Source: an uncultured Caulobacteraceae bacterium
Lineage (GTDB): Bacteria > Pseudomonadota > Alphaproteobacteria > Caulobacterales > Caulobacteraceae
Direction: 5' to 3'
Length of the DNA stretch: 10,886 bases
NCBI GenBank assembly: GCA_903884915.1
Contig: CAISGS010000133.1
Span: 1 to 10,886 of the forward strand
Below the pieces are notes generated by a model that saw only the letters and a program-made list of their open reading frames with translations, had not been told where the DNA came from and searched no databases. Of this stretch, positions 2,418-8,558 are shown piece by piece. The translations under genes and the position numbers were made by a program. Each line of letters starts with the position of its first letter. The first letter of the stretch is position 1.

Positions 2418-3448
2418 GCGGCGCGGCTGACCGAGAAGTCGGCCAGAGCCTCGAGAGCCTGACGCCAGTCATTGTTCGGGAACACCGCCAACGCGGCCTT
2501 GGCCGTTTCGGCATAGTCCACCGCAAGGTCGAGGCTGGCATCGAGGGCGCCCGTGCTCAGGATAAGATCACGCGCGCGCAGGAAGTCCGCGTCGGTCTGA
2601 TCGAGCCGCCCGACCGTACGCTCCCAGAAGGCCGTCTCGGCCGTGCCCGTGCGGGCCATGGCCAGCAGCAAGGGCAAGGTGGCCTTACCCTCTCTAAAGT
2701 CATCACCGGCATTCTTGCCCAGCGTCTCGGTCTTGCCGCCATAGTCCAGCGCATCATCGGTCAACTGGAACGCCAGTCCCAAATTGAGGCCATAGGCGCG
2801 TAGGGCTTGGATATCGGTCTCAGACGCGCCGCTGACCACCGCGCCGGCTTCAGCAGCGGCGGCGAACAGTTCGGCGGTCTTGGCCTTGATGATTTCCAGA
2901 TAGGTGTCCTGATCCAGCGCCAGATCATGGGCGCGGGTCAGTTGCAAAACCTCGCCCTCGGCAATGACGCTGGAGGCATGGGCCAGAATATTCAGCGCCC
3001 GCAAGGACCCCGTCTCGACCATCAGCTCGAACGAGCGGGCGAACAGAAAGTCTCCGACCAGCACACTAGAGGCCCCGCCCCAGATCAGGTGCGCGGCCAC
3101 CTTGCCCCGGCGAAGGGTGCTGCCATCGACCACATCATCATGCAAAAGGGTTGCGGTATGGATGAACTCGACCGCTGCCGCCAGCTTCAAGAAGCCATCT
3201 TCGGGCAATCCATTGGCGACCGTCGAGGCCTGCCCGCGTGCCAGCCGCGCCGCCGCGACGGTCAGCAGCGGCCTCAGCCTCTTGCCGCCCGCCACGATCA
3301 GATGTTCGGCCAAGGCTGGGATCACCGGCACGGGGCTGTCCATCCGCCCCATGATCAGGCTGTCGACACCCGCCATATCCGACGCCGCCAAACGCACGAG
3401 GCGCTCGACAGAACCGATTGGCCGGGTGATGACCTCCGTGGCGTCCAA
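2414..3448 (-). CDS. ispB: Trans-polyprenyl diphosphate synthase (octaprenyl/decaprenyl type)
   Basis: A 344-residue all-helical E-type isoprenyl diphosphate synthase that condenses isopentenyl diphosphate onto an allylic primer to make the long ubiquinone side chain. Motifs are intact: GGKRLRP (54-60), the first aspartate-rich motif DDVVD (104-108) followed by RRGK (113-116), and the second motif DDALD (231-235) in FQLTDDALDY, then GDDFREGKATLP (248-259). Residues before DDVVD lack the bulky aromatic pair that limits product to farnesyl or geranylgeranyl length, which fits a long-chain enzyme. Exact chain length cannot be read; ubiquinone-10 producers of this group would need decaprenyl. The start codon is TTG, chosen because AAGGAG (3456-3461, minus strand) sits seven bases upstream. 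The next in-frame ATG would remove 24 residues. The stop overlaps that of the convergent glycosyltransferase by four bases. Confidence 0.9.
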   Translation of the reverse strand: MDATEVITRPIGSVERLVRLAASDMAGVDSLIMGRMDSPVPVIPALAEHLIVAGGKRLRPLLTVAAARLARGQASTVANGLPEDGFLKLAAAVEFIHTATLLHDDVVDGSTLRRGKVAAHLIWGGASSVLVGDFLFARSFELMVETGSLRALNILAHASSVIAEGEVLQLTRAHDLALDQDTYLEIIKAKTAELFAAAAEAGAVVSGASETDIQALRAYGLNLGLAFQLTDDALDYGGKTETLGKNAGDDFREGKATLPLLLAMARTGTAETAFWERTVGRLDQTDADFLRARDLILSTGALDASLDLAVDYAETAKAALAVFPNNDWRQALEALADFSVSRAA

Positions 3449-3455
3449 GATCTGG

Positions 3456-3461
3456 CTCCTT
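3456..3461 (-). promoter_or_regulatory. Strong ribosome binding site fixing the TTG start of the prenyl synthase
   Basis: On the minus strand AAGGAG is followed by seven bases and then TTG at 3448. This near-consensus site is the reason for preferring the TTG start over the downstream ATG codons. The remaining 130 bases up to the divergent methyltransferase gene must hold both promoters, but no convincing -35/-10 pair is visible on either strand. Confidence 0.65.
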
Positions 3462-3591
3462 GCTGATGCCGCTAGCAGACTAGACCCCTGCCCATCGCCT
3501 TCATACTGAATATGCGCTGACGGTTGCAGGAGACAAGGATTGCGGGATAGGTCAGGGGAGAGGCGAGCACAAGTCTTGAAGCGGTCAAACC

Positions 3592-4371
3592 ATGACGGAA
3601 TCTGAATCAGACGGCGGCGAGGGGTCTAATTTGACCCAATCTTGGTCGCAAGACACCGTCATGGGCGGCAAGGTCATCCTGCGCCAGCCGATCAAGGGCT
3701 ATCGCGCGGGACTGGATGCGGCCCTGCTGGCGGCCTGCTGTGACGCGGTTTCGGGCCAACGGGTGGTAGAAGCAGGCTGCGGCGTCGGTGGAGCCTTGCT
3801 GGCGGCTGCGACGCGCTGTCCGGGGGCCAAGCTCGTCGGGATTGAGCGCGACCTTCAGGCGGCGTCGCTGGGCCGCGACAATATAGCGCTCAACGGTCTG
3901 CAATATCGGGTTCAAATCATTGAGACCCCCCTGCCCGCCTCCGTCGCCAAGCTGGGGCTTGAGCCCTTCGACGCGGCCATTAGCAATCCGCCCTTCTTTG
4001 ACGATCCGGCCAGCCTTCGCACGCCAGATGCCAGTCGCTTGGGAGCCTATATGGCCGAAGAGGGCTTGGGTGCTTGGATCGGCTTTTTGCTGAAATCGGT
4101 GCGTGAGGGCGGCAGCATCACCATCATCCACCGCGCCGACCGTCTGGGCGATATTCTTAGCCTTCTGGCCCCCAAGGCCGGGTCCGTGCGGATCAGACCC
4201 ATCGCCCCCTTCGTGGACGCCCCCGCCAAGCGGGTTCTGGTCCGCGCGATCAAGACCGGCAAGGCCCCGATGGTCTTACTTGCGCCTCTCGTGCTGCATG
4301 ACCGTGGCGGCGGGCATACGGTGCAGACCGAGGCGATCCTACGCGGGGAAACGGCTCTGGGCTGGGACTGA
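3592..4371 (+). CDS. TrmN6/COG4123-like SAM-dependent N6-adenine methyltransferase
   Basis: A 259-residue class I methyltransferase. The SAM-binding motif I is VVEAGCGVGGALL (58-70), followed by an acidic ribose-binding residue in GIERD (83-87) and the catalytic SNPPFF motif (131-136). That NPPF/Y tetrad is typical of enzymes methylating exocyclic amines of adenine. Family members related to E. coli TrmN6 (YfiC) modify A37 of tRNA1(Val); whether this protein has that target is inference. The N-terminal TVMGGKVILRQPIKGYRAGLDA stretch matches the usual opening of the family. The start at 3592 keeps this opening but has only a weak upstream AAGCGG. An ATG at 3661 is possible but would clip the conserved opening. 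It diverges from the prenyl synthase and is followed by the hairpin terminator of ilvC. Confidence 0.85.
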   Translation: MTESESDGGEGSNLTQSWSQDTVMGGKVILRQPIKGYRAGLDAALLAACCDAVSGQRVVEAGCGVGGALLAAATRCPGAKLVGIERDLQAASLGRDNIALNGLQYRVQIIETPLPASVAKLGLEPFDAAISNPPFFDDPASLRTPDASRLGAYMAEEGLGAWIGFLLKSVREGGSITIIHRADRLGDILSLLAPKAGSVRIRPIAPFVDAPAKRVLVRAIKTGKAPMVLLAPLVLHDRGGGHTVQTEAILRGETALGWD

Positions 4372-4387
4372 TCTCGCCAAAAGAAAA

Positions 4388-4434
4388 GGCCACCCAGAGG
4401 GCCAACCGGTGATCCGGTCGGGCTCTGGGTGGCC
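4388..4434 (-). terminator. Intrinsic terminator of ilvC (possibly bidirectional)
   Basis: GGCCACCCAGAG (4388-4399) and CTCTGGGTGGCC (4423-4434) form a perfect 12-base stem. A second inner stem, ACCGG/CCGGT (4405-4409 with 4414-4418), caps it with a four-base loop. Read on the minus strand the stem is followed at once by TTTTCTTTT (4379-4387), the classic intrinsic terminator arrangement, 33 bases after the ilvC stop. On the plus strand no T-run follows, so termination of the methyltransferase transcript here would be weaker. Confidence 0.85.
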
Positions 4435-6290: not shown

Positions 6291-7130
6291 ATGAACGCAC
6301 ACGCCCCCGACTCAGTTGCAAAGACCGCTGCCCATCCTGAGCAGCAATATCTTGATCTGTTGGCCGACATCCTCGCCAACGGTTCCTATCGGCAAGACCG
6401 GACTGGCACCGGCGCAAAGAGCGTCTTTGGGCGGCAGATGCGCTTTGATCTGGCGGCAGGCTTTCCGCTCCTGACCACCAAGAAGCTGCATCTTAAGTCG
6501 ATTATCGTCGAACTGCTCTGGTTCCTGCGCGGCGACACCAATGTCAAATATCTGCACGATCACGGGGTTAGCATCTGGGATGAATGGGCCGATGAGGCCG
6601 GTGATCTTGGCCCGGTCTATGGCAAGCAATGGCGCAGTTGGGCCGCTCCCGACGGTCGCGTGATCGATCAGATGGCCCAACTGGTCCAAGGCCTGAAGAC
6701 CAACCCCAATAGCCGACGCCACATTGTCAGCGCTTGGAACCCGTCTGAGGTGGACGACATGGCCCTGCCGCCCTGTCATTGCCTGTTCCAGTTCTTCGTG
6801 GCCGACGGCAAGCTATCCTGCCAGCTCTATCAGCGCTCCGCCGACATGTTCCTTGGCGTGCCGTTCAACATCGCCTCCTACGCCCTCCTGACCTTGATGG
6901 TGGCGCAGGCGACGGGGCTGGAGCCGGGTGAGTTTGTCCATACGCTGGGCGACGCCCACATCTATTCCAACCATGTCGAGCAGTGCGAACGTCAACTGTC
7001 CCGCCAGCCCCGCCCTTTCCCGACCCTAACCATGGCCCCCAAGACTGACCTATTCAGCTTCGACTATGCCGACTTCAAACTCGAGGGCTACGACGCCCAC
7101 CCCGGCATCAAGGCCCCCATCGCGGTTTGA
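6291..7130 (+). CDS. thyA: Thymidylate synthase
   Basis: A 279-residue cytosolic enzyme that methylates dUMP to dTMP with 5,10-methylene-tetrahydrofolate and releases dihydrofolate. The phosphate-binding arginine is R37 in DRTGT. The nucleophile is C162 in [31 protein letters not shown] (182-200) and HIYSNH near 223 complete the active site. Residue numbers run 16 ahead of E. coli ThyA (C146), so there is a short N-terminal extension ([16 protein letters not shown]) with no alternative Met inside it. AAGGG (6276-6280) lies ten bases before the ATG. Its product dihydrofolate is the substrate of the folA product downstream. The two genes are normally close in this group but here are separated by the HEPN pair. 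No terminator follows the stop. Confidence 0.97.
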
Positions 7131-7151
7131 TATAAAAAGACATATACAATC

Positions 7152-7212
7152 TTGGTTTGCTTTCGTGCTAAGCACTGATAGGCTCACAGGATCGACCATC
7201 CTTGATCGAGCC
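7152..7212 (+). promoter_or_regulatory. Candidate promoter/operator and leader hairpin of the HEPN pair
   Basis: The 86-base gap after thyA is AT-rich and opens with TATAAAAAGACATATACAAT. TTGGTT (7152-7157) and TGATAG (7176-7181), 18 bases apart, could be a promoter. Within the spacer lies a perfect palindrome GTGCT-A-AGCAC (7165-7175), a possible operator. Further on, GGCTC (7181-7185) plus GATC (7190-7193) can pair with GATC-GAGCC (7204-7212), a bulged hairpin ending four bases before the HEPN ATG and covering its weak GAG ribosome binding site. These are seen sequence patterns; their function is inferred. Confidence 0.3.
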
Positions 7213-7216
7213 TTTC

Positions 7217-7648
7217 ATGAGCGATTTTTCCTTCACGTCGCGCGACAGCTTTCAACGCCTGTCTCAGGAAAAAATCGAAGACGCTATTTTACTGCTCGAA
7301 CATGAGCGATTTTCTAATGCCTATTACCTTGCTGGCTATGCCATTGAATCAGGTTTGAAGGCTGCGCTCTGCAAGAAATTTTTGGCCGAATGCCTTCCGG
7401 ATAGAAAACTTGTCCAGTCGGCCTATACGCATGACCTTCAAACCTTGATAAAACTTGCAAACCTTTCGCAAGAGCTGGATCAATCGACAAAACTTGATCC
7501 TAACCTAGCGAGCAACTGGTCAACAGTCTTACAGTGGTCAGAAGCCAGTCGGTATGAGATATTGGACGCGTTCAAAGTCTTCGAAATAATCAAGGCGGTA
7601 TCCGATCCAACACACGGAGTTTTGCAATGGCTCAAACAGCATTGGTAG
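7217..7648 (+). CDS. HEPN domain protein, probable member of an acquired two-gene module
   Basis: A 143-residue helical protein. The stretch RFSNAYYLAGYAIESGLKAAL (31-51) is the typical second helix of HEPN domains. THDLQTLIKLANL (71-83), the W107...SRYE (111-114) segment and the DPTHGVLQWLKQHW ending (130-143) match the small stand-alone HEPN proteins seen in many bacterial accessory regions. Many HEPN proteins are RNases or AMPylation targets acting as toxins. Here no R-x(4-6)-H catalytic motif is found: the nearest R63 and H72 are eight residues apart, so RNase activity is doubtful. ATG 7217 is preferred over an in-frame TTG at 7202. Rows counted within the gene are 40-45% GC against 70% in thyA (6901-6960), a sign of transfer. 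It overlaps the next gene by 22 bases. Confidence 0.8.
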   Translation: MSDFSFTSRDSFQRLSQEKIEDAILLLEHERFSNAYYLAGYAIESGLKAALCKKFLAECLPDRKLVQSAYTHDLQTLIKLANLSQELDQSTKLDPNLASNWSTVLQWSEASRYEILDAFKVFEIIKAVSDPTHGVLQWLKQHW

Positions 7649-7995
7649 ATCAAGATATCGAGGCAGGCCGTCAGTTCGTGCGTTTGCTCGATATGATCGG
7701 AATTAAGGCCCATGCCGCCTTCTGGCTCTATCGATCTGATACGGAGCGGTGGCGTCTGGTCATTGTCTGTGATGAGGCCGAAAAGGGTTCACGTGACCTC
7801 TATCTGAGGACCATCAAGGCCGGATCGACGATGGGACTGGGTATGGTTGAATTCCAAGCCCCGAGCAGTCGTTTCTATCAGACCTTCAGCAAAAATATGC
7901 ATGTCGATGGCCGCTCCGAAGTGCGTGTCAGCCAAAGCACATTTGAGGGTATCTATATCGAAGACGCCCTGATCTACCGCCTTTCAGCGGCTTAA
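7627..7995 (+). CDS. Uncharacterised partner protein of the HEPN gene
   Basis: A 122-residue soluble protein that I cannot assign to a named family. It begins with a helix (DQDIEAGRQFVRLLDMIG), followed by two apparent beta strands (KAHAAFWLYR and WRLVIVCDEA), a helix (SRDLYLRTIKAG) and further strands, ending with GIYIEDALIYRLSAA. This looks like a small alpha/beta domain. The closing IEDAxIYR segment resembles unnamed proteins I associate with HEPN genes, but that is from memory. The GSx(10)DxD motif of MNT nucleotidyltransferase antitoxins is absent. GGAG (7616-7619) seven bases upstream of the ATG lies inside the HEPN gene, and the 22-base overlap points to coupled translation. The one row counted (7801-7860) is 55% GC, intermediate. 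A role as antitoxin or regulator of the HEPN protein is inference. Confidence 0.72.
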   Translation: MAQTALVDQDIEAGRQFVRLLDMIGIKAHAAFWLYRSDTERWRLVIVCDEAEKGSRDLYLRTIKAGSTMGLGMVEFQAPSSRFYQTFSKNMHVDGRSEVRVSQSTFEGIYIEDALIYRLSAA

Positions 7996-8042
7996 GGGTC
8001 AGGGCGCTTCCCCTCTGGCGCAGAAGCGACTAAATCCTTGTC

Positions 8043-8558
8043 ATGGCTCTGATCCCGATCGCTCTCGTCGTCGCTCGCGCGCACAATAATGTCATTGGTG
8101 CCCAAGGCGGCATTCCTTGGCGGCTGAAGACCGATCTGGTGAATTTCAAGGCGGTGACCCTGTTCAAGCCGGTGATCATGGGCCGCGCGACCTGGGACTC
8201 CCTGCCCTTCAAGCCGCTGCCCGGCCGGCTCAATATCGTCCTGTCCCGCGACGGATCGTTTGAGCCCAAGGGTGCCCTGCCCTGCGAGCGGATAGACGAG
8301 GCCATCGGAATTGCGCGCGAGCAGGCCGAAGAGGATGGGGCCGAAGAGGTCTGCGTCATCGGCGGTGCCCAGATCTATGCGGGCCTTCTGCCCAAGGCCA
8401 AACGGCTCTACATCACCGAGGTCGAGACCGAGGTAGAGGGCGACACCCTGTTCCCTGATTTCGACGAAACGGAATGGCGCGAGACCAAGCGGGAAGCCCA
8501 TCCGGCAGGCCCTGACGATCAGTTCCCCTTCATCTTTCGGGTTCTCGAACGTCTTTAA
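8043..8558 (+). CDS. folA: Dihydrofolate reductase
   Basis: A 171-residue cytosolic enzyme reducing dihydrofolate to tetrahydrofolate with NADPH; it is the usual target of trimethoprim. The opening ALVVARAHNNVIGAQGGIPW is the standard N-terminal strand and Met20-type loop. D31 in RLKTDLVNFK is the catalytic acid (D27 in E. coli). MGRATWDSLPFKPLPGRLNIVLSR (46-69) binds folate and the NADPH phosphate, and IGGAQIY precedes the final strands. The family length is normal and no motif is damaged. The ATG at 8043 agrees with the family start, but no convincing ribosome binding site is visible in the 47 bases after the partner gene. It follows the HEPN pair in the same orientation and recycles the dihydrofolate made by the thyA product. 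Confidence 0.95.
   Translation: MALIPIALVVARAHNNVIGAQGGIPWRLKTDLVNFKAVTLFKPVIMGRATWDSLPFKPLPGRLNIVLSRDGSFEPKGALPCERIDEAIGIAREQAEEDGAEEVCVIGGAQIYAGLLPKAKRLYITEVETEVEGDTLFPDFDETEWRETKREAHPAGPDDQFPFIFRVLERL

Follow-up and report, generated by a model that had tools for sequence, protein, structure and literature searches.

The described systems closest to the locus analysed here, a two-gene HEPN cassette between thyA and folA on a 10,886-nucleotide contig of an uncultured Caulobacteraceae bacterium (GCA_903884915.1, CAISGS010000133.1; this whole stretch is called the window), are the HEPN/MNT (HepT–MntA) pairs and the HEPN-T (PF05168) and AbiV families. HEPN/MNT systems are mobile and patchily distributed and consist of two short adjacent genes, one for a HEPN protein and one for a small alpha/beta protein, which carry the motifs RX4HXY and GSX10DXD as defined in parts of PMC7641770 and PMC3710099. 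One section of PMC7641770 describes PF05168 HEPN partners of MNT without an RNase motif, and the toxicity tests in that section concerned another HEPN class, not PF05168. According to the relevant part of PMC3710099, an Ex3[KR] motif is common in HEPN proteins, and in AbiV and AF0298-type members the motif histidine is lost while another histidine is kept and may form an alternative site. The window pair, which combines a predicted HEPN protein with a partner from an unannotated family, is probably an unstudied toxin–antitoxin or anti-phage unit.

The cassette has the general layout of a HEPN/MNT pair, but its HEPN gene comes first and its HEPN protein lacks RX4HXY. With HEPN-T and AbiV proteins the HEPN protein shares the predicted fold, the retained arginine, the lost motif histidine, another invariant histidine and Ex3K, although it falls below the AbiV model cut-offs (NCBIfam TIGR04498, 16.8 versus 27 bits; Pfam, 16.6 versus 27.1 bits) and, in the same comparison, its partner matched nothing tested. 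The HEPN protein also matches PDC-M28A of the PADLOC candidate system PDC-M28 (E 2.1e-10, 39 bits), whereas the partner matches none of the 5027 PADLOC models. HEPN protein and partner match PHROG 5737 and PHROG 5760, respectively, both listed as of unknown function, and a Klebsiella phage pair matches both strongly. Single pieces of the pair are already catalogued under these PHROG numbers and PDC-M28A; in the open part of PubMed Central we found no paper on the pair itself. Searches there returned no papers for PDC-M28, the PHROG numbers or three Escherichia coli protein accessions, one unrelated paper only for HEPN together with thyA and folA and, among the matches listed, no title or abstract start naming the pair.

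The pair is a presence/absence insertion

The first-pass annotation had described an AT-rich HEPN gene and partner inserted between thyA and folA, and our analysis confirmed this arrangement. The 872-bp segment at 7131–8002 has a GC content of 48.2%, against 58.4–65.7% in the rest of the window (915 overlapping windows of the same size outside it), and both of its genes lie on the same strand as thyA and folA. The features are as follows.

6291–7130, + strand: thyA, thymidylate synthase, left flank (Pfam PF00303, E 2.2e-126)
7131–8002, + strand: inserted segment comprising a leader and two genes that overlap; a 46–49-bp gap here in four congeners
7131–7216, + strand: AT-rich leader before the HEPN gene, 86 bp, 42% GC; also present in congener G001
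7217–7648, + strand: gene for the HEPN-fold protein, 143 amino acids, predicted effector
7627–7648, + strand: overlap of the HEPN and partner genes, 22 nt
7627–7995, + strand: partner gene, 122 amino acids, predicted cognate antitoxin or regulator
8043–8558, + strand: folA, dihydrofolate reductase, right flank (Pfam PF00186, E 5e-51)

We compared the thyA–folA site in seven genomes of the host genus, including the window's own (G000); in G003 the contig ends in thyA, which left five assessable congeners. One of these, G001, carries the pair, with proteins 80% identical to those of the window. The other four have a bare, pair-free gap of 46 bp (G002, G004 and G006) or 49 bp (G005), so that the segment is a presence/absence insertion and the claim of an inserted cassette is borne out at least in this sense; the idea that all close relatives carry the pair, which would have made it an ancestral operon part, does not hold. 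Alignment of occupied with empty sites (without G005) places the junctions immediately behind the thyA stop at the left edge and close to 8002 at the right edge. We found no repeats at the insert edges and no transposase among ten window open reading frames (ORFs) searched against Pfam. One window ORF (2807–3466, 219 amino acids) has no Pfam match, overlaps other frames and may not be a gene.

Synonymous divergence (dS) between G000 and G001 is 0.35 for the HEPN gene, 0.42 for the partner outside a variable segment described below and 0.56 for the whole partner, compared to 0.27–0.36 for four flanking genes. Because the values for the pair lie near those of its flanks, the pair is about as old at this place as the split between G000 and G001, or it moved together with the region. 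The earlier suggestion of horizontal acquisition stands in part: the patchy, AT-rich insert speaks for it, and the divergence lends no support to a recent transfer. Support for the branching among the five near species in a tree of flanking genes is only 34–46, so one gain followed by losses is not separable from other histories. The near-equal divergence of pair and flanks would also suit an ordinary ancestral part of the operon lost by many lineages, as would the failure of G000 and G001 to group together among the near species, in a part of the tree where no branching has support. We consider this very improbable given the AT-rich composition, the empty site in the outgroup congener G005, the presence of the pair in 3 of 131 members of a second genus (that of G007) and its occurrence on phages and plasmids.

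The two genes form a module

The proposal that the two genes belong together was upheld by co-occurrence, adjacency and a shared overlap, and the pair is a real module. HEPN and partner genes are found in the same 4 of 100 relatives (own genome included) and the same 3 of 385 class members. A sample of 398 phylum members includes five genomes with the HEPN gene, and the partner profile recognises a partner behind it in four. G761 has a divergent HEPN gene followed by a 129-amino-acid ORF (L166, 3524–3913) that resembles the partner by eye and was not recognised by the partner profile at E 1. Wherever the profiles recognised both genes in the examined loci, the two were adjacent.

Of 23 loci, 20 have a start codon giving an overlap of exactly 22 nt, with phages, plasmids and other phyla among them; the exceptions are L041 (19 nt), L054 (19 or 4 nt) and L166 (4 nt), and the 23 loci include near-copies (the window and L040; L055, L170 and L171). 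The overlapping bases of the window encode both the end of the HEPN protein, WLKQHW-stop, and the first residues of the partner, MAQTALV. Over 19 loci (excluding L054, L166, L170 and L171), the distance matrices of the two proteins are correlated with r 0.795, a value reached by none of 5000 permutations.

The HEPN protein retains a candidate alternative site

A HEPN helical fold is predicted: the best solved-structure matches are mostly named HEPN, and the AlphaFold2 model has a pLDDT of 93.8. The window protein scores 19.6 bits against Pfam PF05168, for which the cut-off is 22, and an Acinetobacter relative scores 26.8 bits. R-x4-6-H occurs nowhere in the window HEPN protein and in 2 of 61 aligned homologues. 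The arginine is kept together with another conserved histidine upstream, the combination described for HEPN-T and AbiV. The residues and a fast-changing part of the protein map as follows.

7346–7360, + strand: codons of E44-x3-K48, both residues invariant in all 61 aligned homologues
7430–7432, + strand: codon of H72, candidate alternative active-site histidine, invariant in 61 of 61
7550–7552, + strand: codon of R112, after which the motif histidine is missing, invariant in 61 of 61
7562–7609, + strand: fast-changing HEPN helix, residues 116–131 (dN 0.41 and dS 0.37 between G000 and G001, 16 codons)

Judged from the alignment, the invariant E-x3-K, H72 and R112 are consistent with the alternative site proposed for HEPN-T and AbiV, and no sequence alignment of the window protein to AF0298 (2hsb) was found. 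Residues 118–130 are the least conserved block (0.55) in eight HEPN sequences, two of them nearly the same; 478 of 20000 shuffles gave an equally extreme block.

The partner carries an apparently swapped segment

Searches of the partner against Pfam (best E 0.3) and NCBIfam gave no match, nor did its relatives match the PADLOC models. It does match PHROG 5760 (E 2.5e-6), and its profile collects 480 relatives at E 0.01. The predicted structure (pLDDT 86.5) has the order alpha-beta-beta-alpha-alpha-beta-alpha-beta-beta and corresponds to no clear solved fold. Its top Foldseek matches are MNT antitoxins at weak scores (E 0.04–0.10), which would suit a degenerate minimal nucleotidyltransferase and make the pair a dead-antitoxin branch of HEPN/MNT, a reading that we hold to be improbable. 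Profile comparison linked the partner to none of 15 MNT proteins, and GSX10DXD is neither in the partner as read from its sequence nor among the invariant columns.

The partner varies most in one segment.

7852–7947, + strand: hypervariable, apparently swapped partner segment, residues 76–107

Mean identity among ten close sequences (G000, G001 and P0003–P0010, leaving out the fragment P0015) is 61% in residues 76–107, versus 86% and 93% on either side. These bounds were set after the G000–G001 differences had been seen; the most variable 32-column window is 78–109, and 1 of 20000 column shuffles was as variable. Between G000 and G001, dN is 0.49 and dS 2.3 inside the segment, compared to 0.03 and 0.42 outside it. 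P0005 is a mosaic, 99% identical to G000 in residues 1–75 and 38% in residues 76–107, where it is 88% identical to G001. From this pattern the segment looks swapped by recombination, as if imported.

A recombined segment of this kind could resemble a phage-facing surface, and PDB titles call AbiV an RNase that belongs to an antiphage system of two components. Both points would fit a partner that acts as a sensor-activator, its variable segment recognising a phage product and then switching HEPN on, with neither gene toxic alone. We think this unlikely: the HEPN helix is also fast-changing, which suggests that partner and HEPN touch one another, and the shared 22-nt overlap is consistent with stoichiometric control.

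The pair is carried by phages, prophages and plasmids

Beyond the thyA–folA site the pair is widely scattered. It is present in 189 of 5426 complete E. coli genomes, all copies being at least 99% alike, and the three E. coli regions that we opened are lambdoid prophages in which the pair lies between replication gene P and ybcN-ninE-rusA, upstream of the latter. It is also found in Klebsiella phage Kp4864-1, in five viral contigs (two of them nearly the same as the Klebsiella phage), on plasmids of Acinetobacter and Deinococcus and on contigs of Acidobacteriota and Hydrogenedentota metagenome-assembled genomes (MAGs), and a weaker pair is carried by a Lichenicola plasmid.

Several of these loci have features of their own. 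The Deinococcus plasmid (L053, 7384–8766) encodes the partner domain fused to DUF3800 in a protein of 460 amino acids, and the Acinetobacter plasmid (L052) also has two annotated BrnT/BrnA toxin–antitoxin pairs (3837–4425 and 12471–12974). A Bryobacterales MAG (L046) has a nucleotidyltransferase gene (PF01909, 7523–7909) behind the pair. One E. coli O157 genome (L058, 6001–6796) has the HEPN gene annotated as a short fragment next to a whole partner, and the same prophage has a SIR2-family gene further upstream.

The pair recurs at a permissive thyA–folA site

Five genomes of two genera carry the pair between thyA and folA: G000, G001, G007, G665 and G722. The last three are the carriers among the 131 genomes of the G007 genus, which were searched after G007 had been seen to have the pair at this site; their pairs may share one arrival, and all three lack a leader, the HEPN start following the thyA stop by 3–4 bases. 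In a Rhizobiaceae MAG a partner gene (43% GC) lies at the beginning of a contig, followed by a DUF4424 gene and folA; thyA is not seen there and HEPN was not found in the genome, so that we count it only as a possible sixth case. The partner tree, which has several long-branch rows and a bootstrap that is not fully settled, separates the groups of G000 and G007 (96/93 and 100/99) and puts the Rhizobiaceae partner in a third group (80/94). Five of the nine alphaproteobacterial carriers thus have the pair at thyA–folA, one possibly does and three have it elsewhere (G089, G127 and the weak pair on the Lichenicola plasmid).

The first-pass annotation had offered two explanations for this location, a permissive site or a functional link to nucleotide supply. 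Of 88 regions downstream of thyA, 83 have folA in reach, at distances from about 3 to 2889 nt. The 88 comprise 60 regions among the matches listed from 196 genomes, read for 3 kb, and 28 of 30 relatives (G003 and G011 left out), read for about 1.5 kb; all five regions without folA belong to the 28, as does G089, which shares only the taxonomic order. Distances are between tblastn match starts, and genes in the gap, identified by eye unless searched against Pfam, include MazG-like, hydrolase-like, aquaporin-like, oxidoreductase-like and transporter-like ones. Such loose spacing and unrelated content indicate a generally permissive site, which explains much of the pair's location. The range of unrelated genes across the 88 regions also led us to reject the gap as a dedicated defence island.

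Some gap genes deserve mention in their own right. In the G007 genus, most sampled genomes have, between thyA and folA, a MazG-like ORF about 100 amino acids long (for example L021 and L022; L163, 7683–8006), whose Pfam match to MazG-like is weak and below cut-off (E 0.0026). In G722 an HSDR_N_2 gene (type I restriction R-subunit N-terminal, 26.3 versus 25 bits; L163, 8003–8812) follows the pair and the MazG-like gene before folA. G051 (L025) has an AT-richer ORF of 192 amino acids between thyA and a MazG-like gene, with a hydrophobic N-terminal part and no Pfam family over the cut-off; superinfection exclusion was considered for it and dropped, as it has no such Pfam match.

The recurrence in five genomes, two genera and two separate partner lineages counts in favour of a link to the locus. 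One form of such a link is a HEPN protein that binds the thyA–folA transcript as a non-catalytic regulator, a role that part of PMC3710099 proposes for MtlR and the mannitol operon. The repeated location, the HEPN start close behind the thyA stop in G007, G665 and G722 and the lack of R-x4-6-H in 59 of 61 HEPN homologues would agree with this. It is nevertheless quite improbable, as only three of 17 pair loci checked have both thyA and folA and one has folA alone, most sampled Caulobacteraceae lack the pair, and the charged invariant residues are conserved. More ambitious, and in our judgement a long shot, is the proposal that the partner founds a new class of HEPN control proteins whose recognition segment can be exchanged, and that the pair settled by thyA and folA in Alphaproteobacteria more than once since it watches or acts on the thymidylate and folate supply taken over by phage.

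Discussion

The reading that we favour, with moderate confidence, is a mobile HEPN module in which a HEPN effector is held by a co-translated cognate partner. The effector would attack or bind RNA, using E44, K48, H72 and R112 as a site of HEPN-T/AbiV type in place of R-x4-6-H. Translation of the HEPN gene would be followed by that of the partner, coupled through the overlap, and the partner would keep the effector inactive by touching it directly; the most likely contact would be between partner residues 76–107, the segment apparently exchanged between alleles, and HEPN helix 116–131. If the partner were lost or captured, for instance in phage attack, the effector would be freed. For HEPN pairs of other systems on prophages and plasmids, addiction or the exclusion of phages is a frequent role, and by analogy this pair may share it.

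The HEPN pair defined by these results is compact and widely scattered, its partner family is unannotated, and exact residues and segments are now available for testing. How HEPN proteins act without the standard RNase motif is an open question, for which the pair offers a small system. If the thyA–folA link is functional, the pair would be a mobile module tied to nucleotide supply.
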